A stretch of DNA of 23,838 bases from a virus: positions 1 to 23,838 of IMG/VR virus record IMGVR_UViG_3300025313_000120; one strand, written 5' to 3'. A program made the position numbers and the translations under genes. Below are positions 6,351 through 23,797 of the stretch, piece by piece. The notes beneath the pieces were generated by a model, which ran no database searches, was not told the DNA's origin, and was given only the letters and a program-made list of their open reading frames with translations. How positions within the stretch are numbered: position 1 is the stretch's first letter; each line of letters opens with the position of its first letter.

Positions 6351-6993
6351 TAGTTCCCTACCTTCACTTCCCCGCCGAGGGCCATCGTCATCACTTCAAG
6401 CATTTCCCTGCTGATGGGCGCGGCGTTGGGAGTCTTGGGTTTCTTGAGCCATGGCATGACTTCGTGGGGTTGGGGAATCTTCTTTGCACCTTGCGTGGCG
6501 TACATGTGGCAGATCATCGTTGCGATGCGGTAGTCTTCGCGGTGCTCACGTTCGCTGTATGCCTCTTCCAGAGCCGACCATTCGCCCAGCGACAGGCTGC
6601 CGACCTCTTCCCTGCTCAGGCCGTAGCGCACGCGGCAATGCGCCAGAAACTTGAGGCTGGGTCTTAGTCCGCTGCCGCCAGAGCTTTTGGGGGCGTCTCT
6701 TCCGATGCGGCAAAGGCTTGCTGATAGGCGTCAATGACGGGTTGCAGGTTCTGCGGGTCCATCATCGAGCCGACTTCCCTGACGGTGAGTTCCGGCGCCT
6801 CGTGCAGCAGACCCGCCCAGACGATGGCGCGGACCTGCCGGAAGTCCGGCTTCGTCAGCGAATCCCATGCGTCCTTGGTCAGAAAGTTGAGATTCAGTTC
6901 ATCGCCCAACGAGATAAGCGCATTCACGTCAAACTTGAGGTGTCGTTCCTGGCCGCCCAGCATTACCGGGACGACTTTAATGCTCTGTTCCAT
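6350..6993 (-). CDS. Tail assembly chaperone G-T, made by -1 frameshift
   Basis: Reading the G gene to CCCAAAA at 6691-6685 and slipping back one base gives an unbroken frame to 6350, 214 residues in all. After the slip the frame reads KSSGGSGLRPSLKFLAHCR, then VRYGLSREEVGSLSLGEW. This GLRPSLxFLAHCRxRYGLSxEE stretch is what I expect of the T part in HK97- and GTA-like phages. Its upstream half has no start codon and would be lost if T started at the GTG at 6631. The T part alone spans 6350 to about 6684. By analogy with lambda gpG and gpGT, the minor longer form links the major tail protein to the tape measure during assembly. It abuts the tape measure gene (TAATG overlap). Confidence 0.8.
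6664..6993 (-). CDS. Tail assembly chaperone G
   Basis: This 109-residue protein starts at the ATG at 6993, preceded by AAGGAGAGCGA. A longer frame to 7140 is only the shadow of the HNH gene. The protein opens MEQSIKVVPVMLGGQERHLKFDVNAL, then LISLGDELNLNFL and a helical region (DSLTKPDFRQVRAIVWAGL, PELTVREVGSMMDPQNLQPVIDAY). It ends in an Ala-rich tail that covers the slip site. The pattern of a small acidic protein with a Phe/Asn-Ala-Leu motif just before the tape measure, and an overlapping second frame, is diagnostic of phage tail chaperones. It overlaps the HNH gene by 17 bases. Confidence 0.85.
   Translation of the reverse strand: MEQSIKVVPVMLGGQERHLKFDVNALISLGDELNLNFLTKDAWDSLTKPDFRQVRAIVWAGLLHEAPELTVREVGSMMDPQNLQPVIDAYQQAFAASEETPPKALAAAD
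6685..6691 (-). other. -1 ribosomal frameshift slippery site CCCAAAA
   Basis: Read 5' to 3' on the minus strand, the heptamer C CCA AAA fits X XXY YYZ in the zero frame of the G gene, 6 codons before its stop at 6664. After slippage the two codons become CCC and AAA, so both tRNAs can re-pair. The new frame is open to 6350. A GC-rich region (CTCTGGCGGCAGCGG) follows, but I did not find a clear strong pseudoknot by eye. Confidence 0.82.
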
Positions 6994-7375
6994 TCGCTCT
7001 CCTTCCAGGGCCGCAAGCGCCATGGGTCCGGTCATCGCGCGTCTTTCGAGCGTGGCAAGGAACCGCGCAAAGACCTTGCCCGTTCTCCAGCGACCAATCG
7101 CCCGAGCCGTCCGGGTTGAGCGGCACGATATGATCCGCAACCGTGGATGGCACGTAGTGATTGGGAATCTTGTAGGGGTTCACGCATAGCGGATCGCGGG
7201 CCAGTACCAGCCTGCGCCATTTCACATGCCGTCCGCCGTATCCCCGTTCCGCCGTCTTGCCGCGGTACTGCCGGTCGGCTGCATGGGCGGCCAGACGATG
7301 CTTCTCGCAACGTCCACGGTCAACCAGTTCCCGGCAACCTGGTTGACCGCAGAAGCGCCTAACCGCGACAGGCAT
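6977..7375 (-). CDS. HNH endonuclease
   Basis: This 132-residue protein starts at the ATG at 7375, overlapping the tail tube stop as TAATG. It opens with a small Cys cluster (FCGQPGCRELVDRGRCEKHR). The HNH core follows: VADHIVPL gives the first His, SLENGQGLC the Asn, and PCHARKT the last His. The zinc knuckle reads C-x3-C (LCAVPC) rather than the usual C-x2-C, a one-residue insertion. HNH enzymes close to the terminase can be part of the packaging motor, but this one lies in the tail region. It may be a free-standing homing-type nuclease or serve tail operon exchange. No interrupted gene or intron was found around it. A longer frame upstream (to 7744) only shadows the tail tube gene. Confidence 0.85.
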   Translation of the reverse strand: MPVAVRRFCGQPGCRELVDRGRCEKHRLAAHAADRQYRGKTAERGYGGRHVKWRRLVLARDPLCVNPYKIPNHYVPSTVADHIVPLNPDGSGDWSLENGQGLCAVPCHARKTRDDRTHGACGPGRRANGTEH

Positions 7376-14269: not shown

Positions 14270-14704
14270 TTAGAGAATCGCCATCCCCTTAACCTTCTGC
14301 GCCGTGGTCGCCCCGTTCCAGATATTCATCATGCTGGTCTGCGGGGTTGTGTAGAAAGCGTTGTTGGTCGCAAACAATCCCAGCGCAACCCCCTTCTGCG
14401 CCTGCCTAAAATCGTTGACCGCCGTAGTCCACTGCGCCATTAGCGATGCATCGGAGTCGGGTGGGGAATCCGGGTCTGGCGTCACGTCCGTATCTGGCAC
14501 CGCCTGCGACACCGTATCCTTGCTCACCAGCGCTGCGATGATGGAACGCGCCTGACCCTTCAGCCATAGAGCAGCCTGTGATAGTGAAGTGAGGCCCGGG
14601 GGAACCGTCATGGTGCGCGGAACCACTTTCACGCCGTCTGTAAACTCCACCTGCACCACGTTGCTGTCAGGATCGAAACGAACGAACTTTGCTGTCCAGG
14701 CCAT
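14270..14704 (-). CDS. Hypothetical phage protein
   Basis: This 144-residue protein begins MAWTAKFVRFDPDSNVVQVEFTDG, a short strand module. A helical LTSLSQAALWLKGQARSIIAAL follows, then an acidic Pro/Asp linker (VPDTDVTPDPDSPPDSD), and a C-terminal part with AVNDFRQAQKGVALGLFATNNAF. No family is recognised. It has an ATG preceded by AAGGAGGGACACCT and lies 12 bases after the signal-peptide gene upstream. It probably belongs to the accessory virion block. Confidence 0.7.
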   Translation of the reverse strand: MAWTAKFVRFDPDSNVVQVEFTDGVKVVPRTMTVPPGLTSLSQAALWLKGQARSIIAALVSKDTVSQAVPDTDVTPDPDSPPDSDASLMAQWTTAVNDFRQAQKGVALGLFATNNAFYTTPQTSMMNIWNGATTAQKVKGMAIL

Positions 14705-14716
14705 AGGTGTCCCTCC

Positions 14717-15388
14717 TTATGGAGCTGCCGCGACGACGATTTGGCCCGAGAGTTGTACGGCCGCACTGGTAACCAAGCACAATACAGCGTTGGAAGTAAC
14801 AGTCCGTCCGACTGACCCAGCTCCATTTCCAAGCGTCAGACCGCCATTCGCTGCGAAGTTCCAGCCTTCCGCTGCCGTAACGCCGCCCATGACTCCAGCG
14901 GTCGGAGAACCGCAGCCGTCGGTGTTGTCGTCGACCAGCGCGACGTTGTTCGCACCGGCCGTGACGAGATTGATTGCGCATATGTAGTAGTGCGTGCTTG
15001 CGCCCGCCAGCGACGGCGTGATTTCGGTGGTCGTGGCCGTAACGATGTCAACTGGGAGGTAGAGCTTGGCAATGCCGCTACATGGGTCTAGTTGCCGCGT
15101 CCACATCTGCCCAAGCGAATCAAACGACGGCATCGTGTTGTCGCCGCTCGTCGCGGTACTCGCGGCAGCGACATCCCGGCGGACGCCCATCGCGTAGAGT
15201 CCGGTGCCACCAGCCGTCTCAGCCACGTCTTCCACCGGGACGGCAACGCCACCCAACTGGGACAACGTGGTAACGGTGGTAACGGTGGTCACCGTGCCGC
15301 TGGAGAACGTCACGGGCTGCTGTGAATACACCACCGCTCCGTAGAGGATGACGACCAGCAATGCCAGCCAGATCGGTTTCGTCTTCAT
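14717..15388 (-). CDS. Virion-like protein with N-terminal export or anchor signal
   Basis: This 223-residue protein starts at the ATG at 15388, 5 bases after the previous stop. It opens with MKTKPIWLALLVVILYGAV, a signal peptide or membrane anchor, then a short VTT repeat (VTTVTTVTT). The region GLYAMGVRRDVAAASTATSGDN followed by MPSFDSLGQMW matches a pattern frequent in phage structural proteins (A-x-RRD ... DGD ... DxxGxL). The C-terminal part is strand-rich, with Cys pairs. A virion protein carrying an export signal is odd. It may be anchored in the host membrane to interact with particles. Function unknown. Confidence 0.73.
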   Translation of the reverse strand: MKTKPIWLALLVVILYGAVVYSQQPVTFSSGTVTTVTTVTTLSQLGGVAVPVEDVAETAGGTGLYAMGVRRDVAAASTATSGDNTMPSFDSLGQMWTRQLDPCSGIAKLYLPVDIVTATTTEITPSLAGASTHYYICAINLVTAGANNVALVDDNTDGCGSPTAGVMGGVTAAEGWNFAANGGLTLGNGAGSVGRTVTSNAVLCLVTSAAVQLSGQIVVAAAP

Positions 15389-15392
15389 CTGA

Positions 15393-15626
15393 TTAACCAC
15401 CAATGGATTTGCCGGTCAGGCCGATGACGCCGGGATCAACGTCCAAGCCGAAGTGTCGTCGGCCGCAGACCTTGCACACATGGCAATGGATGTCCTGCCG
15501 AATAACAGGCTCTCCGTTGATGACCAGGCGCGCGACCATTGCGCCCGTGGCCGTTACGGAGTCTTTGGAAACGAGGTTGCTCGGTTCTGCGCAGCAAGGA
15601 TTCAGATTTGGATTTGTCGCCGACAT
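15393..15626 (-). CDS. Small Cys/His-rich (zinc-ribbon-like) phage protein
   Basis: This 77-residue protein has an ATG with GGGGGGAGT upstream. The Cys/His clusters (PCCAEPSNLV and CHVCKVCGRRHFGLDVDPG) suggest zinc binding by four of them. VCGRRHFGLDxDPGxIGLxGK recurs in small phage proteins next to capsid or head-tail genes, but I know no role. It lies between the decoration-like gene and the first signal-peptide protein. Confidence 0.77.
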   Translation of the reverse strand: MSATNPNLNPCCAEPSNLVSKDSVTATGAMVARLVINGEPVIRQDIHCHVCKVCGRRHFGLDVDPGVIGLTGKSIGG

Positions 15627-15635
15627 ACTCCCCCC

Positions 15636-16067
15636 TTACGCGAGTGTGAAAATGGTTCCAGTCGTGTCGGAGCCATTAAACTTGACACTAAAGGTCTCCC
15701 CCACCAGCAGGGTCAGCGACGATCCGTAGTCCCACCAGGCGATGAGCGGGTCCACGGGCGATGTCTGGGTGTCGTTGTAAAGCGTCACATAGCGAAAGCT
15801 GGCCATGCCAGCGCCGGAAGAGGTCCACACAATTTTGGTGCCCGTTAATGTGGCAGTGCCGGTAGCCTCCGCAAGGGTGTTCTGTGAATCTTCCCCGCCG
15901 GTCGTGTAGCCATTGCCATTGGCGATTTGCGTGAGGTCCGACAGAATCGTATTGGTAGCCACTGGCGCAGCGAGCGTCAGCACGCATTTCAGCGTATCGG
16001 TATTTAGCTGATGCTTGGCAAGGCCAAGTTGTTCGACAAAATCTTGTATCTTCGAGTACGAAGCCAT
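15636..16067 (-). CDS. Decoration-like phage structural protein
   Basis: This 143-residue protein has an AAGGAG 9 bases before the ATG. It starts MASYSKIQDFVEQLGLAKHQL, then LKCVLTLAAPVATNTILSDLTQI, GNGYTTGG, TGTATLTGTKIVWTSSGAGMASFRYVTLYND, and PLIAWWDYGSSLTLLVGETFSVKFNG. I have seen this protein (with LIAWWDYGSxxTLxxGExFxV) in very many siphophage head regions. It is usually listed as a phage protein and may stabilise or decorate the capsid. The exact role is not known to me. Confidence 0.82.
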   Translation of the reverse strand: MASYSKIQDFVEQLGLAKHQLNTDTLKCVLTLAAPVATNTILSDLTQIANGNGYTTGGEDSQNTLAEATGTATLTGTKIVWTSSGAGMASFRYVTLYNDTQTSPVDPLIAWWDYGSSLTLLVGETFSVKFNGSDTTGTIFTLA

Positions 16068-16072
16068 ATACT

Positions 16073-16177
16073 TTACTCCTTATCGGCCATTGTGATGTAC
16101 TTCACACTATGGCGGTTAAATTGGACACGGAACCACATCGGCCTAGGCATACATCCAAGCGATAAACGAACGGTCAT
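16073..16177 (-). CDS. Possible 34-residue small protein
   Basis: An ATG at 16177 with AGGA 6 bases upstream opens a 34-codon frame ending in TAA at 16073, inside the ribosome binding site of the next gene. The product (MTVRLSLGCMPRPMWFRVQF, ending in MADKE) looks protein-like. The good spacing to both neighbours suggests translational coupling. The CRP-like palindrome lies inside it. Confidence 0.4.
   Translation of the reverse strand: MTVRLSLGCMPRPMWFRVQFNRHSVKYITMADKE
16087..16112. promoter_or_regulatory. CRP/FNR-type palindrome
   Basis: TGTGA (16091-16095), six bases, then TCACA (16102-16106) form a perfect 5-bp inverted repeat with the spacing of the CRP family consensus. The flanks CCAT and ATGG extend the symmetry imperfectly. 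It lies 20 to 45 bases in front of the decoration-like gene. It could bind a CRP-family regulator, or be a chance match in coding sequence. Confidence 0.3.
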
Positions 16178-16189
16178 TCAGTCCTTTCA

Positions 16190-16786
16190 CTACCACTCGA
16201 AATGTGGAATTGTTTCGTTCACTAGCAACTGTTCAATGTGAAACGGCACCATTGCCACGATGGTCCCAGTGATGATTGGTTCTCGGCTCTCGTACCAATG
16301 GGCCACGAGCATCTTGATTGCGAGCTTGATCGTGTCGCTGACCAGTAGCGGCGACGTGGCTCCGGCCGTGTAGTTCACTTCCACAGCATTCATGCGGCTG
16401 TACAGCGATGGCCAGACGTACCCATAGGCGGGCTCGATGCGCGCGGGCGCGCTGAGCAGGTCCGCCTGGTAGGCGCTGGAGGAAAGTGTCTGCTGCGTGC
16501 CGGTGGTGTCGTAGTATTTCACCGATCCAACCGATGCCACCGGGGAGCGCGGAAGGCGAATGACGCCGCATGCCGGCCAGCCATCTAGCGTGAGCTTTAG
16601 AACGGTGGTGCAGAGCGTCCGGTTGGTCACGTTTTCGACCGTGATCCGCGCTGCCTTGAGCAATCCGCCGATATTCGGCTCGATGTCCTGCACATCCTCG
16701 ATGTCACCGAGGCGCAGCCATTCCGCGGCGGCGGCGAGGTCTACTGCCTCAATCGTTGGCGCTGTGGTAACGGTCAGTGCTGACAT
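16190..16786 (-). CDS. gp6-like head-tail connector
   Basis: This 198-residue protein begins MSALTVTTAPTIEAVDLAAAAEWLRLGDIED. The typical gp6 segments follow: LLKAARITVENVTNRTL, RLPRSPVASVGSVKYYDTTG, VEVNYTAGATSPLLVSDTIKLAIKMLVAHWYESREP. It forms the ring that joins the portal to head closure. The ATG at 16786 has no recognisable ribosome binding site (upstream bases read GTGCCCTAA). The remnant copy of the same start at 17944 keeps a good one, TGAGGAATAA. This and the 50-bp direct repeat show that a cassette was inserted here. How the intact gene is now translated is unclear. Confidence 0.88.
   Translation of the reverse strand: MSALTVTTAPTIEAVDLAAAAEWLRLGDIEDVQDIEPNIGGLLKAARITVENVTNRTLCTTVLKLTLDGWPACGVIRLPRSPVASVGSVKYYDTTGTQQTLSSSAYQADLLSAPARIEPAYGYVWPSLYSRMNAVEVNYTAGATSPLLVSDTIKLAIKMLVAHWYESREPIITGTIVAMVPFHIEQLLVNETIPHFEW
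16728..16777 (-). repeat. 50-bp direct repeat, copy A (in the intact connector gene)
   Basis: This stretch is identical to 17886-17935 and lies in the 5' part of the connector gene. The next 6 bases differ between copies (TGCTGA versus GCTGGA on the plus strand), then ACATTTA is shared again. The pair flanks the inserted cassette. Confidence 0.92.
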
Positions 16787-16811
16787 TTAGGGCACTAATA
16801 TACTTGCGTAA

Positions 16812-17564
16812 CCAAGCATCCGAGCTCCCATCCTCAAATCCGACCAACTAGCGGTTGTTGACGAAAAGCTAAAACGGGCCGACGAAAACATCCGCAATCT
16901 CCACACCGAAATCACCGCCTTCCTGCCCGACAACACCGCAAGCGGAATCAGCGAAGAGGAGAAGAAGGGAGTCGATGAATGGGCCAGAAGGCATGCGAAC
17001 CGAGGCATCCCCCCCAGGTTTGGCGTCCTTGCTGGCGAGGTTGTTTATCATCTCCGGTCCTCGCTCGACCATATCGTGTGGATGCTTTCCGATGACGCCT
17101 ACAAGAGGGCCAATGAACGGGCCATTGCCTTCCCCATATTCGTCAAAGAGCCAGTGGCGAAAGATGAAATTGCCATTTACAACAGACAGATAAAGGGCAT
17201 CACGACCAACAGCGATGCGTTGCGTGTCATCAAGGACGTACAGCCGTACCACGCTAGGGATCGTGCTACGGATCAGCCGCTTGCCATCGTCCACGACTTG
17301 AACCGAATTGATAAGCACCAGAACATTGTTGTGGTCGTGGGAACCTTCAACATGGGAATGAAATTTCCCGCTGCCGTCGTCATCGGCAGCTCTAAGATGA
17401 GCGAGGAGCAATTTGCTGCCCTCTTTCAGCAGAAGGTAGAAATTAAGTTGGCCCGACAAGTAGCTTTCAAAAGGTTTGGACAAAGGGAAAACCAAACGGC
17501 TATCCCATCGCTCACGCATCTTTTGAACGCGGTCCGCGATGTCGTCAAGCTGTTCGATTCCTAG
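16812..17564 (+). CDS. R-x4-H (HEPN-like) protein, start codon missing or unusual
   Basis: This plus-strand frame is open from the TAA at 16809 to the TAG at 17564 (about 250 codons). No ATG, GTG or TTG occurs before a GTG at 17076, which falls inside the conserved part and lacks a ribosome binding site. The real start was therefore lost at the cassette edge or is non-canonical (an ATC at 16818 or 16830 is possible). It has an N-terminal helical stretch (KSDQLAVVDEKLKRADENI), the segment GEVVYHLRSSLDHIVWML with R-x4-H as in HEPN RNases, and then AFPIFVKEP, KDVQPY, and HDLNRIDKHQNIVVVVG. I recognise the HNLRSALDHLVW ... FPIF ... QPY ... L-x4-DKHR pattern from many bacterial hypothetical proteins of about 230-260 residues, but know no proven role. 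HEPN nuclease activity is inference. A 262-codon frame on the other strand here is a shadow. Confidence 0.68.
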   Translation, partial: PSIRAPILKSDQLAVVDEKLKRADENIRNLHTEITAFLPDNTASGISEEEKKGVDEWARRHANRGIPPRFGVLAGEVVYHLRSSLDHIVWMLSDDAYKRANERAIAFPIFVKEPVAKDEIAIYNRQIKGITTNSDALRVIKDVQPYHARDRATDQPLAIVHDLNRIDKHQNIVVVVGTFNMGMKFPAAVVIGSSKMSEEQFAALFQQKVEIKLARQVAFKRFGQRENQTAIPSLTHLLNAVRDVVKLFDS

Positions 17565-17598
17565 GCAAGAGTCGATTTTTGGGAGTGGCACTGGTATA

Positions 17599-17615
17599 GT
17601 CCCTTCTAGAGGGAC
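17599..17615 (+). promoter_or_regulatory. Inverted repeat over the ribosome binding site of the 60-residue gene
   Basis: GTCCCT (17599-17604), TCTAG, AGGGAC (17610-17615) form a perfect 6-bp inverted repeat. The right arm contains the AGGG of the ribosome binding site, and TATAGT at 17595-17600 may be a -10 box. It could be an operator for autoregulation or an RNA hairpin hiding the ribosome binding site. Confidence 0.45.
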
Positions 17616-17621
17616 GACACA

Positions 17622-17804
17622 GTGACCACTACTCAAGGGAAAGCCTCTGGCAAGCAATCAGAATGGTCCAACTTTGAAAGTGCACTGAAGAAGGTACTGT
17701 CTGTCTCCCACGCCGAAATGAAATCAAAGCTGGACGCTGAGAAGCGGACGCGTCCTAAGCGCGCCGCTTCCCGCGTTTCCCGATCTTCCCGCGCCAACGA
17801 TTAG
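17622..17804 (+). CDS. Small basic protein of unknown function (60 residues)
   Basis: It starts at a GTG at 17622 with GAGGGA 9 bases upstream. It reads as a helix with a conserved feel (SEWSNFESALKKVLSVSHAEMKSKLD) and a basic Arg/Ser-rich tail (TRPKRAASRVSRSSRAND). I have seen short bacterial proteins of the type F-x2-ALKKVLSVSxxEMKxKLDAEKRxK, with no function assigned. It follows the R-x4-H protein gene by 57 bases on the same strand, so the two may form one small unit. It is the only cassette gene with intact start signals. Confidence 0.72.
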   Translation: MTTTQGKASGKQSEWSNFESALKKVLSVSHAEMKSKLDAEKRTRPKRAASRVSRSSRAND

Positions 17805-17944
17805 GAACAACTTCCTGCCTTCCCAGTGACTTCCGCGAAGGTCAACCGCTTTCCTGCGATGCGCGATAGCGCCAGTTGAAACCTAGCGGCGGCGAGGTCT
17901 ACTGCCTCAATCGTTGGCGCTGTGGTAACGGTCAGGCTGGACAT
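17801..17944 (-). pseudogene. Remnant of the connector gene 5' end
   Basis: From an ATG at 17944 (preceded by TGAGGAATAA, a good ribosome binding site) the frame reads MSSLTVTTAPTIEAVDLAAA, which matches the intact connector (MSALTV...) except Ser for Ala at residue 3. It then diverges into cassette sequence (RFQLALSRIAGKRLT and on) and stops after 47 codons. This was the original start of the connector gene before the cassette came in. Confidence 0.85.
17886..17935 (-). repeat. 50-bp direct repeat, copy B (in the connector remnant)
   Basis: This stretch is identical over 50 bases to 16728-16777. It marks the right edge of the inserted cassette; the sequence to its left is foreign to the connector gene. 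Confidence 0.92.
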
Positions 17945-18508
17945 TTATTCCTCATAGAGAGGGGGGGGGCGCAAGTAACCGTTGGTGGCGAACAGCCACT
18001 TGCGCCCTGGGGGCTTCCCGGCAGGGAAGGTGTTTACGCAATGGCCGTTGCGGACTGGTCTCCGGCGTAACGCGCGCCGGAAAGAAATCGCAATGGCCGA
18101 GGCAATCACGCTATTGGTGCCGTTGGTGATGTGCAACCGCAGGTTGGGGTATCCCGCCGGCAGTTCGCTGGCATCAATCTCCATGACGTAGAAGATGCCA
18201 TTGTTGGCCGAAGGCGCAGCTTCGCCAGTTGCGGCCTTGGCAATCGCGGCGCTGAGTGTGTCACCGGCGGCAGTCTCTTCCTCGTACTGACGGAAAGCGA
18301 TGTCCACGGTGGCGGAAGGCGTGAAGTCGTCGCACGCCTGCAAGATTGTTGCCGTCCATGCCGCAGCCGACACTCCGACCTGAAGGACAATCGTGGCGTG
18401 TGCATAGTTCCCCATCGAAAACACATCGGAGTCCGCTCCGCCGGTGATGTCCACGGGCGGTAGGATGTTCACGATGTGGCCCTGCTCTGCAATGTTGATT
18501 CCCTTCAT
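17945..18508 (-). CDS. Small virion protein with probable 3' frameshift
   Basis: This 187-residue frame starts after AAGGAG. The body (MKGINIAEQGHIVNILPPVD, FSMGNYAHATIVLQVGVSAAAW, YVMEIDASELPAGYPNLRLHITNG) is typical of a phage protein found right after the capsid gene, likely a decoration protein. After SVIASAIA the frame becomes an atypical basic tail (ISFRRALRRRPVRNGHCV). The +1 frame instead gives LSGARYAGDQSATAIA and a stop at 18034, which looks like the natural end. One extra A in the plus-strand run at 18085-18087 explains it. The repaired protein would have 157 residues. The extra tail runs through a run of nine G at 17961-17969. Confidence 0.78.
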   Translation of the reverse strand: MKGINIAEQGHIVNILPPVDITGGADSDVFSMGNYAHATIVLQVGVSAAAWTATILQACDDFTPSATVDIAFRQYEEETAAGDTLSAAIAKAATGEAAPSANNGIFYVMEIDASELPAGYPNLRLHITNGTNSVIASAIAISFRRALRRRPVRNGHCVNTFPAGKPPGRKWLFATNGYLRPPPLYEE

Positions 18509-18539
18509 GGTCCGTGTGCTCCTTATCTCAGAATGTGTG

Positions 18540-18561
18540 GGCGGCCCCCGAAGAGGCCGCC
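18540..18561 (-). other. Stable hairpin with UUCG tetraloop after the capsid gene
   Basis: On the minus strand GGCGGCCTC pairs with GGGGCCGCC (9 bp with one G-U) around a C(UUCG)G tetraloop, 6 bases after the capsid gene stop. No T-run follows, so it is not a standard terminator. It may protect the capsid mRNA 3' end or reduce read-through. Confidence 0.6.
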
Positions 18562-18567
18562 TCAGAC

Positions 18568-19893
18568 TTAACCGCGGGTATCGAGCGAGACGAACGGCGA
18601 CTGCGTTGCCGTGCCCTTGAACGGGGTCAGGGGCAGGTTCCAGATGGGCTGTCCGTCAACGCGCAACGTGATGCGGAAGGTCATTTCGTCGTTGATGAAA
18701 CGGACATGCATAGAGGACGCCGCTTGCGCACCGCCCTTTTCGATCATCAGGTACTGGCTGAGGTCCAGCAGCATGACGTCGCCCTTGGTTCCGAGTGTCG
18801 GGCAGTATTCCACGGGGATGACAGGACGGCCGAGGATCGTGCCGTAGCCATCGCCATTGGGGAACTGATAGACGGGGGTGGAGATGCCGCCGACGTTCTC
18901 AGACCCGGCGACGTTCTTGATCTTGATGTTGAGCTGCGGCAGTTGCGGCATCACGTCCTGATTGACGAACCATCCAGCATTCGCGCGGCTGCGCGGGTGC
19001 AGGCGGGCGTACATCTTCAGAACGTTCTCGGAAACAATCGTGGCCGCAACTTGGCTGGCTTCCTTGGCAACGCTCACCAAGGCGGAGCTGTTGAGAATGC
19101 CGAGCGGCTGGCCTACGCCGGTTCCCTCGATGATGGCGTCTTCCACGAGGAAATTCAGTTCCTCGGAGAATGCCTGCTCCGCGATTCCGCCCAAAGCGGA
19201 CGCATCCGCAATAAGTTCATCGGTGGCGTAGTACAACGCCATGAGCTTGCTCAGCTTCAGTTCCATCTGGCGGAACTTGGGCTTCTTGGAGGTAACTGTG
19301 TCGGCTTCCTGTGCCCAGTAGCCCTGGACGCCGCCCCAGCGTGAACCGGTGGCGCGGCTGGATTCGTCAACCGCGTTGATGACAAGCCCGTTGCCGCTGA
19401 CGGTCTGCCGGCGAACCCTGCTCAGCACTTCGCCGCCCTCGTTGACCCGGCGCAGGATTTCATTGCTGAAATCGGACTGCACAAGGAATCCGCCATCGGA
19501 AGGAACAGCCTCATTCGATCCCGTGGCAGCAGCCTGCAAGCGGGGATCAACCAAGCGGCCATTGCTACGGTCGGCCGCAACCACCGCAAGCAGATATTCG
19601 CCCAAAGACTTGAAGCCGGCCTTTTTGGGCGCCGGATCACCTGCCCGGCTTGCCGCGTCCGTGTTCGGACTCTCGCCGGGAGTGGCGTTCCGCTCGATTT
19701 CTTGCAGGGCCTCTTCGCGCTCGACCTGCTTGCTGATTCCATTGGAACCAGTGAGCGCCTTAAGGTTCTCTTCATACTTGGCTGCCTCGGATTCGTTCAG
19801 TTCCCGATTCTCCGCGGCGGCCGCGTCCAACAGCCCGCGCATCGTCTTGGTGATGTCATGCGCGCGCTGCCGCAGTGCTTTAATGTTCGACAT
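18568..19893 (-). CDS. HK97-fold major capsid protein
   Basis: This 441-residue protein starts at the ATG at 19893, which has AAAGGAG 8 bases upstream; a longer frame to 19980 is not supported. About the first 100 residues are charged and helical (MSNIKALRQRAHDITKTMRG, ...NRELNESEAAKYEENLKAL) and should be the delta scaffold domain that the protease removes. The shell domain follows: KSLGEYLLAV, SDFSNEILRRVNEGGEVLSR, YWAQEADTVTSKKPKF, FLVEDAIIEGTGVGQPLGIL, DGYGTILGRPVIPVEYCP, and a final VDGQPIW. These are signature stretches of the HK97 capsid family. Hairpins lie in its 5' leader and just after its stop, in keeping with high expression. Confidence 0.95.
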   Translation of the reverse strand: MSNIKALRQRAHDITKTMRGLLDAAAAENRELNESEAAKYEENLKALTGSNGISKQVEREEALQEIERNATPGESPNTDAASRAGDPAPKKAGFKSLGEYLLAVVAADRSNGRLVDPRLQAAATGSNEAVPSDGGFLVQSDFSNEILRRVNEGGEVLSRVRRQTVSGNGLVINAVDESSRATGSRWGGVQGYWAQEADTVTSKKPKFRQMELKLSKLMALYYATDELIADASALGGIAEQAFSEELNFLVEDAIIEGTGVGQPLGILNSSALVSVAKEASQVAATIVSENVLKMYARLHPRSRANAGWFVNQDVMPQLPQLNIKIKNVAGSENVGGISTPVYQFPNGDGYGTILGRPVIPVEYCPTLGTKGDVMLLDLSQYLMIEKGGAQAASSMHVRFINDEMTFRITLRVDGQPIWNLPLTPFKGTATQSPFVSLDTRG

Positions 19894-19961
19894 CGCTTTT
19901 CTCCTTTGCGTATCTACGTGCTCCGCCGCTGGCTTCCAGACATCGGAAGTCGCTCTGGCGC

Positions 19962-19986
19962 TTTGCCGCAGCGGAGCCACGGCAAA
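19962..19986 (-). other. Leader hairpin in front of the capsid gene
   Basis: On the minus strand TTTGCCG (19986-19980) pairs with CGGCAAA (19968-19962) with an 11-base loop, in the gap between the protease stop and the capsid start. It may stabilise or regulate the capsid message. No T-run follows. Confidence 0.4.
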
Positions 19987-20004
19987 AAGTCGTTTGGTTG
20001 TGCT

Positions 20005-20895
20005 TTAGAGGGTCGCTGCTACGAGTTCGAGTTCCCGTGCAAGCTGTGCGCGCAGGGAACGTTGCGGTGCGCGCGCTCCAAGTCGTTGTAACGCCTGGTC
20101 CATCGTCTCGATACGGTCGGCCATGCCGATTTTCACGGCGTCGGACGCCATGACCATGCGGCCTTCGCCAAATCCGCTGCGCACCGCTTCCTGTGACACG
20201 CCGCGGCCCTTGGCTACCGATTTCACGAACATTCCGTAAAACCCATCTACCTTGGACTGTAGCTCGGCACGGGCCGACTCGCTCAATGGCTCGAACGGGT
20301 TTCCATCGGCCTTGTACTTCCCTGCTGTGATGAGTGAAATCTTGATGCCCTCGTTTTCGAGGGCCTTGGACATGTCTTCGTGCGCGGCAATGACGCCGAT
20401 GGAACCGACCATGCCACTGGGTGACACGGACAGTTCGCCGGCCGCAGACCCCAGCCAGTAAGCCGCGCTGGCCGCTGTCGTGGCGTGGGCCACGATCTTC
20501 TTATCTTTGCGTGCATCGAGGATTTCAGCCGCCATTTCCGGCAATCCGGCCACCGCTCCACCCGGCGAGTCAATATCCAGCACAATTGCCGAAACATTCG
20601 GATCGGCGACGGCCTGCCTGAAGTCGGCAGCCAGCGTATCGAGCGGAGTTCCGCCAAAAATCATGGTAAACAGGCTGGCATGTGGCGTGATCGCTCCATG
20701 AATCGGGATGACGGCGATGGAACCGGAAGACTTCGCGCTGGGGCGTGGCCCGGCGCTGAATTTCGCCTGAATTTCGGCATCGGTAAGCTCGCCACTGACT
20801 TTTAGCGCGATAAGGTCGGCAATGGACTGGAGCTTTTCCGGCAGAATGGCCCACGGCTGACGAAATACTTCGGCAACAAGTGGTCTGTAATTCAT
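20005..20895 (-). CDS. S49-family head maturation protease
   Basis: This 296-residue protein overlaps the portal stop as ATGA. It carries SppA / lambda C-like segments: IAVIPIHGAITP (residues 60-71), IVLDIDSPGGAVAGLPEMA (104-122), VAHATTAASAAYWLGSAA with the likely nucleophile Ser143, and GSIGVIAAHEDMSKALE. AGKYKADGNPFEPLS holds the likely Lys base (Lys195 fits best by position). It is the order expected between portal and capsid: the enzyme trims the capsid scaffold domain inside the procapsid. The N-terminal 55 residues are a typical extension. An internal scaffold product from an in-frame start, as in lambda C/Nu3, was not looked for in detail. Confidence 0.93.
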   Translation of the reverse strand: MNYRPLVAEVFRQPWAILPEKLQSIADLIALKVSGELTDAEIQAKFSAGPRPSAKSSGSIAVIPIHGAITPHASLFTMIFGGTPLDTLAADFRQAVADPNVSAIVLDIDSPGGAVAGLPEMAAEILDARKDKKIVAHATTAASAAYWLGSAAGELSVSPSGMVGSIGVIAAHEDMSKALENEGIKISLITAGKYKADGNPFEPLSESARAELQSKVDGFYGMFVKSVAKGRGVSQEAVRSGFGEGRMVMASDAVKIGMADRIETMDQALQRLGARAPQRSLRAQLARELELVAATL

Positions 20896-22187
20896 AGGAG
20901 CACTCCCATGTCTTTAGCGATGCGTGCATCGCTGGAATCTGGTTCGTCATCTGTGGTCGGTGCAGGCGCAGGCGCAGGTACAGGCGATCCTGCCGGAACC
21001 ATGTTCGATGGACGCCAGTAGTCCGCTCCACCTTGCTCCGCAGGGATCTTCGGCAGATTTTCCTTGCTGGCAATGATGTCGCCGTTCATAAATCCCGCTT
21101 GGCGGGCAAGCGAATACGACTCATAGCGACTCTTCAAATCGCCACGCAGCAGGGCGTCCAAATTGAATTCCGAGAAGTATCCATCACCGTAGATTTCAGC
21201 CAGCGGCTGAATAAGGTCCACATTGACTCGTTTTTCAAAGCGATTCGCGCGGGCCGACATAGAATCGGTGACAAACTCAATTCCCTGGTGTTCGATGTTG
21301 TTGTTAGTGGAACGTTCCAACATGCTTATTTTGTGCGGCGGGATGCGCGCCATGCCGCAGATTTCCTCGCGGGTGGCGTTTGTGGACTCGAGCAACTGGG
21401 AATCCTTGTTCGTGATCCCAATTGCCTGATATTCCATGCCATTAGGGAGAATGGCTGTCTTGCCGCGGTTCTTTCCTGCTTGGTACTCTTCCCACTGCTT
21501 GCGGAATTCGTTGTACTTCTCAGTAGAGAGCGACTGCGGGACTTTCAGCACACCGCCCGGCGTGGCGTTGTTGCCAAGAAAGCTAGTCTCGAAATCCTGC
21601 TGCGCCAGGCCCTTGCGGATAACGTTGCTGGCGGCAGAAATGAAGCTCATCCCATAGATTCCATCCGAGGACAGTCCGCGGATGTGCAGCACTTGGTCCT
21701 GCGTCAGTTTCGTTGTAGCAAGTCCGTTGGTGGATGACACTTCATACTGGAGGCGTCCACTATCCAGTTGCTTAACTTGCACTCGATCGGGGTGCATGGG
21801 CACAAGTGCGTCAATCACGCCCCGTGGCCCCGGCAGAATGCGTGAATAGGCATTCCCGCGCAGTTCGATGTGCGCCTGCATCATCTCGACCCACTCAAAC
21901 GCGGTCTGCCAAACGTTCGGGCGATTGTGCAGAACGTCGTATAGCGGGAAGTCTCTGGCACGCTCGCGCCCGCCATCGGGTAATCGCTTGTAGATTTCCA
22001 ATGGGCAGGAAGCCAACGTCTCCGAAGCGACGCGTACGCAAGCGAACACGGCAGACAACTGCAATGCAGATGCGGGAGTTACGGCACTGGAGCCAATGCC
22101 AAACGGCTGATACCAGTAGTCGTCAGACGGTCCTGGTGCGCTGGCTCCGATGAAACGGCCAACTGAGCGCAGTAACCGCCCTCTCAG
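20892..22187 (-). CDS. HK97-type portal protein (non-ATG start)
   Basis: The clear family sequence begins upstream of any ATG: RSVGRFIGASAPGPSDDYWY, QPFGIGSSAVTPASALQLSA, then VFACVRVASETLASCPLEIYK. It continues with YDVLHNRPNVWQTAFEWVEMM, LRGLSSDGIYGMSFISAA, NNIEHQGIEFVTDSM and a Pro/Ala-rich end. No ATG exists in the 140 bases before 22064, and in-frame GTG or TTG codons are also absent. A TTG at 22064 would cut off the conserved DDYWYQPFG. CTG at 22187 has GAGGT 10 bases upstream; CTG at 22172 has AGAGG 7 bases upstream. Start at one of these two is inferred. The protein (about 431 residues) forms the 12-mer ring for DNA passage. It starts next to the terminase stop at 22190. Confidence 0.93.
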   Translation of the reverse strand: MRGRLLRSVGRFIGASAPGPSDDYWYQPFGIGSSAVTPASALQLSAVFACVRVASETLASCPLEIYKRLPDGGRERARDFPLYDVLHNRPNVWQTAFEWVEMMQAHIELRGNAYSRILPGPRGVIDALVPMHPDRVQVKQLDSGRLQYEVSSTNGLATTKLTQDQVLHIRGLSSDGIYGMSFISAASNVIRKGLAQQDFETSFLGNNATPGGVLKVPQSLSTEKYNEFRKQWEEYQAGKNRGKTAILPNGMEYQAIGITNKDSQLLESTNATREEICGMARIPPHKISMLERSTNNNIEHQGIEFVTDSMSARANRFEKRVNVDLIQPLAEIYGDGYFSEFNLDALLRGDLKSRYESYSLARQAGFMNGDIIASKENLPKIPAEQGGADYWRPSNMVPAGSPVPAPAPAPTTDDEPDSSDARIAKDMGVLL

Positions 22188-22189
22188 GT

Positions 22190-23797
22190 TTATACGAACC
22201 TCAATTCAGGTGCGGCCGTGCTGGAAAGCAGCGCGCAGGCGTTATCCGCCATCGCTAAAGCCACGATTCCGTCAATTCGGCCCGTGGCCTTGCGTTTGTC
22301 GAATTTGCGATTCCCGGCTGGGTCCACGCTCACCCGGGCGTTGTCAATGCACCAGCCCATGACTGGATTTCCGCGATGCTTCAGTCTGCGACTCAACACA
22401 TCGTCCTCGAGCGCCGTCACAGCCGAGGCCATGCCCTTGAATCCCTGGCCGGATGGCGTGATAGTTAGGTCCACGCCCAGATCTTCTAGTTCGCGGGTCA
22501 TTTGGTCCATGTTCCAAGGGTCAAATGCAAGCGTAGCGATCTGGAATTTCGTGGAAAGCTCGCCAAGCTTCCGCGCAATATACCGGTAATCAATCACCTT
22601 GCCAGGAGTAGCCATGAGGTGGCCTTGTTTCACCCAGAGCCGGTACGGAGCGGAGTCTTTCTTCTCCGCTTCCTCGATCCCATCCTCGGCCGTCCAGAAA
22701 TACTCCAGTAGGGGCTTCTCTTCCTCCATCGGGAAGACCAAAACCAGCGCCGTCAGGTCATTTTTCTTGGACAGGTCCAATCCGGCGTAGCACACCTGAC
22801 CGCGCAGGCTGTCTTCCGTGAAATCCGACTGGCAGGCAGCCCATTCCGCGCGCGGAATGAACCTGAACTCTCCAGCCACGCGCTGATTGAGATAAAAAAG
22901 GCGGAACGCCGCTTCTCTCGCCGGGATACGTTTAGCCTGTTCGGCGGCGGATCGCATCTCATCCAGCGACCGGAAGTCGCCAAGTGCCGGATTACAGCCC
23001 ATCCATGTGGCCTCGGACCACGTGTCGGCCGTTTCCGGCGCGGCATAAATACAGGGAAAAAACGTCTTATCCTCGACCACGCCGTCCCGAACCTGCACGC
23101 CATAATCGAAAAGCTCGCTCATAATGTGCTTCGGATCGCCAGACTGCGTGGAAATTACTATCGTGAGCGGTTCCGCCCTAGCGCCGGTGGAGGTCGTCAG
23201 CACATCGTACAGCTCGCGATTAGGCGCCTGCGCCAGTTCGTCGTAAATAATGCACGACGCTGAAAAACCGTGCTTTGTCTTAGCGTCAGAGGACAGCGCC
23301 ATGAATATGCTGCCGGTTTCCACATCCTCGAGGTGTTTCGTGAAGTCACGAATGACAATCCGGTTACGCAGCGCTGGAACCTTGTTAATCATGGCCTTCA
23401 TCTCGTTGTAAATCAGCGCCGCCTGATTCCGGTCCGCCGCCGCCGAGTACACCTGCCCGCGCTGCTCCGCCTCCGGTCCGCATAGATGCGCCAGCGCCAG
23501 CGCCGCAGTCAGCCCCGTCTTCCCGTTCTTTCGCGGCATCGTGATAAGCGCCTGCCTGACAATCCGCTTCCCGCTCTCGTCCGTGGCGTAAATGCCATCA
23601 AGAATCATTTTCTGCCAGGCCCGCAGCACGAAATCTGTTCCCGCCAGCGTCCCAGACGTGACCGGAAGCTTTTCAATGAAGTTGATTACCTGCTCTACGC
23701 GAGTACCTCCAGCTATGGAAGCGGTAGAAACGTACCGCCTACCTTTCCAGTTTTGTAAACCCTTTATTTTCTGTGCGTTAGGGCCGCGTAGTCCCAT
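22190..23797 (-). CDS. Large terminase subunit (HK97-like TerL)
   Basis: This 535-residue protein packages DNA into the procapsid. The start at the ATG at 23797 gives MGLRGPNAQKIKGLQNWKGR, a common opening; a TTG 24 bases earlier is less likely. The ATPase has a Walker A-like MPRKNGKT (residues 87-94) and a Walker B CIIYDELAQ (Asp187-Glu188). The nuclease half has CYAGLDLSKKNDLTALV, with a metal-binding Asp near 341, then TLAFDPWNMDQMTRELE and a last metal site in GRIDGIVALAMADN. The length fits the family. The small terminase would be to the right, outside this window. Confidence 0.96.
   Translation of the reverse strand: MGLRGPNAQKIKGLQNWKGRRYVSTASIAGGTRVEQVINFIEKLPVTSGTLAGTDFVLRAWQKMILDGIYATDESGKRIVRQALITMPRKNGKTGLTAALALAHLCGPEAEQRGQVYSAAADRNQAALIYNEMKAMINKVPALRNRIVIRDFTKHLEDVETGSIFMALSSDAKTKHGFSASCIIYDELAQAPNRELYDVLTTSTGARAEPLTIVISTQSGDPKHIMSELFDYGVQVRDGVVEDKTFFPCIYAAPETADTWSEATWMGCNPALGDFRSLDEMRSAAEQAKRIPAREAAFRLFYLNQRVAGEFRFIPRAEWAACQSDFTEDSLRGQVCYAGLDLSKKNDLTALVLVFPMEEEKPLLEYFWTAEDGIEEAEKKDSAPYRLWVKQGHLMATPGKVIDYRYIARKLGELSTKFQIATLAFDPWNMDQMTRELEDLGVDLTITPSGQGFKGMASAVTALEDDVLSRRLKHRGNPVMGWCIDNARVSVDPAGNRKFDKRKATGRIDGIVALAMADNACALLSSTAAPELRFV

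Follow-up and report, generated by a model that had tools for sequence, protein, structure and literature searches.

The DNA analysed here, referred to as the window, is a stretch of 23,838 nucleotides of viral origin (IMG/VR record IMGVR_UViG_3300025313_000120). Its minus strand carries the head module of a tailed phage, made of the terminase large subunit, the portal, an S49 protease, an HK97-type capsid protein, a gene with a broken 3′ end, an insert, and a head-tail connector (Table 1). The remaining conserved head genes have reading frames that span almost their entire Pfam profiles. The broken gene departs from its natural frame at the A run at 18085-18087 (plus strand). Residue 141 is the last normal one, and from there the zero frame runs on into a 46-residue tail with a net charge of +8, while the next frame encodes LSGARYAGDQSATAIA and a stop at 18036-18034. 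An earlier note on this DNA had attributed the break to one extra A in this run, with a natural-looking end left intact in the +1 frame and an atypical basic tail of about 45 residues in the current one. Both the end with its stop and the tail are found as described, and alignment with a near-identical contig (L023, discussed below) shows that both the cause and its position were given exactly right. In L023 the normal protein has 157 residues and its natural end; residues 142–157, the last 16, are replaced in the window product. L142, G144, and R146, all lost through the break, are each at least 90% conserved in the family.

Table 1. Coordinates of the broken gene, its parts, and the adjoining capsid gene in the window.
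Feature	Position	Strand	Basis
Major capsid protein gene, HK97-type, PF05065	18568..19980	−	Pfam; directly upstream of the broken gene
Frame-broken gene, capsid-adjacent, probable jellyroll cement protein	17945..18508	−	187 aa as in the window; relatives, synteny, model of an intact relative
A run (T on the coding strand), one base longer than in L023	18085..18087	−	Comparison with L023
46 shifted codons, net charge +8	17948..18085	−	Absent from all readable relatives (including the best 80 of 159)
Natural 3′ end in the other frame, LSGARYAGDQSATAIA + stop	18034..18084	−	Conserved in 89/89 relatives reaching the end (including the best 80 of 159)
Hairpin CCGGCG...CGCCGG	18062..18080	−	By-product of the codons for SGARYAG

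Relatives were gathered by scans of viral contigs and genome contigs for the gene or its site and, with repeated fetches of the same contig removed, the set examined comprised 91 contigs in addition to the window. The largest of these scans, from which the best 80 of 159 relatives were kept, used two patterns, one being the C-terminal motif itself, and its set therefore leans towards intact members. Counting these best 80 of 159, the C-terminus is reached by 89 of the 91 relatives, with L009 and L012 leaving their contigs before the end. All 89 (the best 80 of 159 included) have the in-frame end, with a stop no more than 22 residues from the conserved motif. A scan that used only patterns lying upstream of the site gave 10 loci, 8 of which reach the end, and all 8 are intact. 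The check on homologues proposed by the earlier note, in which relatives carrying the basic tail would count against a break, was also run: the long basic tail is present in none of the 89 readable relatives, a set that again includes the best 80 of 159.

Could the tail nevertheless be a functional, lineage-specific extension that has taken the place of the old end? Its 46 open codons and its charge of +8 speak for this reading, which we consider highly improbable. As a control, the 89 relatives were read from one base before the motif, and 88 of them (including the best 80 of 159) meet a stop inside the locus. In this shifted reading of the 88, with L023 counted and the best 80 of 159 among them, the median is 35 open codons and at least 46 are open in 32, which makes the tails of those 32 of 88 as long as the window's or longer. 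The shifted products of the same 88 (L023 and the best 80 of 159 included) carry a net positive charge in 74 cases, and are as basic as the window's tail, at +8 or more, in 16. Because the shifted frames of relatives often give similar tails, a long basic tail is what shifted readings of this DNA tend to produce, and on the control with these 88 relatives (best 80 of 159 included) a selected tail is rejected. The natural end is moreover still encoded by the same DNA in L023.

L023 is a second IMG/VR contig (3300025174_000628) of 7,739 bases. Aligned to positions 14701–22430 of the window, it shows a single difference in 7,730 columns, which is the one additional A in the window's 18085–18087 run. 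Its copy of the gene is intact, and the natural end is made without any shift. When either form of the site was used as an exact pattern, with the window's own record excluded, the contig of L023 alone was matched. L023 may come from related material, which limits its independence as a witness. Its first 50 bases hold a short inverted repeat, and the first 10 mismatch the window; this start is a fold-back assembly end.

The earlier note had offered three causes for the extra base, namely mutation, sequencing error, or a +1 slip yielding two C-termini. The first two stand, and the third is not supported. Programmed +1 frameshifting in structural genes was reportedly described by Zimmer in 2003 for Listeria phage PSA, and a similar slip at ATT-TCT-TTC would let both C-termini be made here. 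The two cases share a +1 frame change close to where a head gene ends (3′), from which either of two C-termini could result; here both frames stay open, and the site is followed by a hairpin. In contrast to PSA, the shift is here neither needed nor kept by any relative (the best 80 of 159 included), and the near-identical L023 is without the extra base. All 89 readable relatives, including the best 80 of 159, are in frame unshifted, as is L023 itself, and none of the 89 has the tail. There is also no nearby zero-frame stop at the putative slip site, the zero frame being open for 46 codons. A programmed slip is thus very hard to sustain, and just as improbable is the reading in which the extra base is real and +1 slippage yields two forms of the cement protein, of which one would carry the capsid-binding tail and the other the basic one.

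The hairpin itself is accounted for by coding. The GC-rich stem CCGGCG...CGCCGG that had been pointed out right after the site is present, with its arms at 18062–18067 and 18075–18080 on the plus strand. The 61-nt segment folds only weakly better than its shuffles (z = −1.86), 11 of 200 being equally or more stable. Of six slid registers, five pair less well than the true one. No conserved downstream stimulatory structure was found among the 89 relatives (including the best 80 of 159): all six pairs form in only 4, L023 being one of them, and at least four pairs in 52. Random synonymous codings of SGARYAGDQ give six of six pairs in 8.9% of cases and at least four in 88%, and six other members with SGARYAG have only four pairs each. 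Since random synonymous codings pair as well, the hairpin is explained by the protein sequence, which rules it out as a conserved stimulatory element. On the strength of L023, the in-frame relatives, and this codon-explained hairpin, the programmed slip is rejected.

What remains, almost certainly, is an ordinary event: a single base, private to the window, was inserted close to the gene's 3′ end, either by an assembly or consensus error or by a real mutation, and no programmed frameshift is involved. Between these two, an error in consensus or assembly is weakly favoured as a matter of judgement, because the sole mismatch between sequences that agree across 7.7 kb sits exactly where it breaks a conserved gene. 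A real and recent mutation that had become fixed or common in the population sampled is a less probable but serious candidate, and it would leave the phage with a cement protein bearing a foreign basic tail, or without the protein. The length of the run favours it, since two or three A do not make a typical homopolymer error site, unlike the long runs that are error-prone, and the beta core would survive as far as residue 141. Against it, no further difference to L023 is found over the 7,730 columns, and that one base costs the protein residues that the family conserves. If the insertion were real, the product would retain its beta-sheet core (residues 1–141), lose the conserved 16-residue tail, and gain a random basic one. 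Weaker binding to the capsid would then be expected, because the break replaces the part matching the capsid-contact tail of phage BPP-1 (see below) and removes L142, G144, and R146. The case shows how a single base in an environmental contig can mimic recoding, and how the matter can be settled by one near-identical contig.

The description of the gene as a capsid-proximal virion gene is backed by synteny and, moderately, by fold. The gene adjoins the HK97-type major capsid gene, recognized by PF05065 in the window, and in 87 of 91 relatives (including the best 80 of 159) the capsid match ends 16–131 bases upstream of it. The remaining four of these 91 (best 80 of 159 included) comprise three contigs without upstream DNA and one with the capsid 972 bases away. 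An AlphaFold2 model of an intact relative, L003, built with 74 sequences, has a mean pLDDT of 91.4 and a pTM of 0.86 and is nearly all beta; the final strand runs to residue 143, and the tail is modelled with lower confidence (76 and 66 in the last two blocks).

In the second structure comparison of this model with the PDB, YomS of SPBc2 is at the top (Z 11.4), followed by proteins of phage Milano (9.2) and phage 7-7-1 (8.8), and lower down by two subtilisin entries (8.5 and 8.4) and Carin1 capsid chain A (8.1, 20% identity). Unrelated proteins thus score up to Z 8.5 against this model, and phage capsid chains 8.1–9.2. Foldseek against the PDB gives one match below 0.001, an Eph receptor domain with a low TM-score, and the best match in a viral structure library is an uncharacterised phage protein (TM-score 0.75). 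Bbp16 of Bordetella phage BPP-1 (PDB 3j4u chain H) aligns with the L003 model at Z 8.2 (rmsd 2.9, 106 aligned residues, 22% identity), and is likewise a small, beta-structured protein whose capsid partner is of the HK97 type. That chain H is the cement protein is deduced from its length of 140 and from the paper on BPP-1 (PMC3863775). In BPP-1, the cement protein continues beyond the jellyroll in a 16-residue C-terminal extension (Thr125-Ala140), and a loop at its C-terminus makes contact with capsid proteins (PMC3863775). The tail of L003 likewise extends about 14–16 residues beyond the last strand in the model, and residues 142–157, replaced in the window, correspond in position to this capsid-contacting tail. 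BPP-1 differs in being a podovirus with a permuted capsid fold (PMC3863775).

Gene order and these moderate fold scores make a jellyroll cement protein on the outside of an HK97-type shell the probable identity of the gene product, a likely reading rather than a proven one because unrelated proteins score nearly as high. Sequence searches gave little. PHROG 28483, for which no function is given, is matched by 9 of 74 family members (best E 2.4e-8); for L003 itself, no PHROG was matched at E 0.01. A sequence-profile search of the PDB matched no chain below E 0.6 (best E 0.62), and the window protein (18091–18508) matched no phage record at E 0.001. The L003 protein found no match in phage records at E 10 or in plasmid records, nor did the family member tested in Pfam and NCBIfam. 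The family is a widespread capsid-adjacent one, present on at least 91 contigs besides the window, and from its modelled fold and position is probably a capsid cement.

Next to the broken gene lies the insert (16790–17885; 1,096 bp, 53% GC), flanked by a 62-nt direct repeat, 94% identical, at 16728–16789 and 17886–17947, which corresponds to the beginning (5′) of the connector gene. The complete connector gene begins within the repeat copy at 16789, and the copy after the cement gene is truncated after about 46 codons. The arrangement suggests that an insertion duplicated, or restored, the start of the connector gene. Repeat and insert are also present in L023, which is without the extra base; the insert and the frameshift are therefore unrelated, and a link between them is ruled out. 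Running counter to the head genes, on the plus strand, the insert holds a 242-codon open frame (16836–17564), with no ATG, GTG, or TTG before 17076, and a 60-codon ORF (17622–17801). Relatives of the longer frame were found among viral contigs only in that of L023, with none in genome contigs or phage records, none in plasmid records for its 3′ part, and none above the cut-off in Pfam; the shorter ORF is matched only in the contig of L023, with none in plasmids. These reading frames may derive from a piece of a cellular gene that was captured. Elsewhere in the window, two further plus-strand ORFs (1145–2611) run counter to the structural genes and have signal-peptide-like starts, with no match in NCBIfam. 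In the tail-gene region, the minus-strand ORF 7744–6977 includes a stretch, at about 6977–7310, that presumably resembles an HNH endonuclease.
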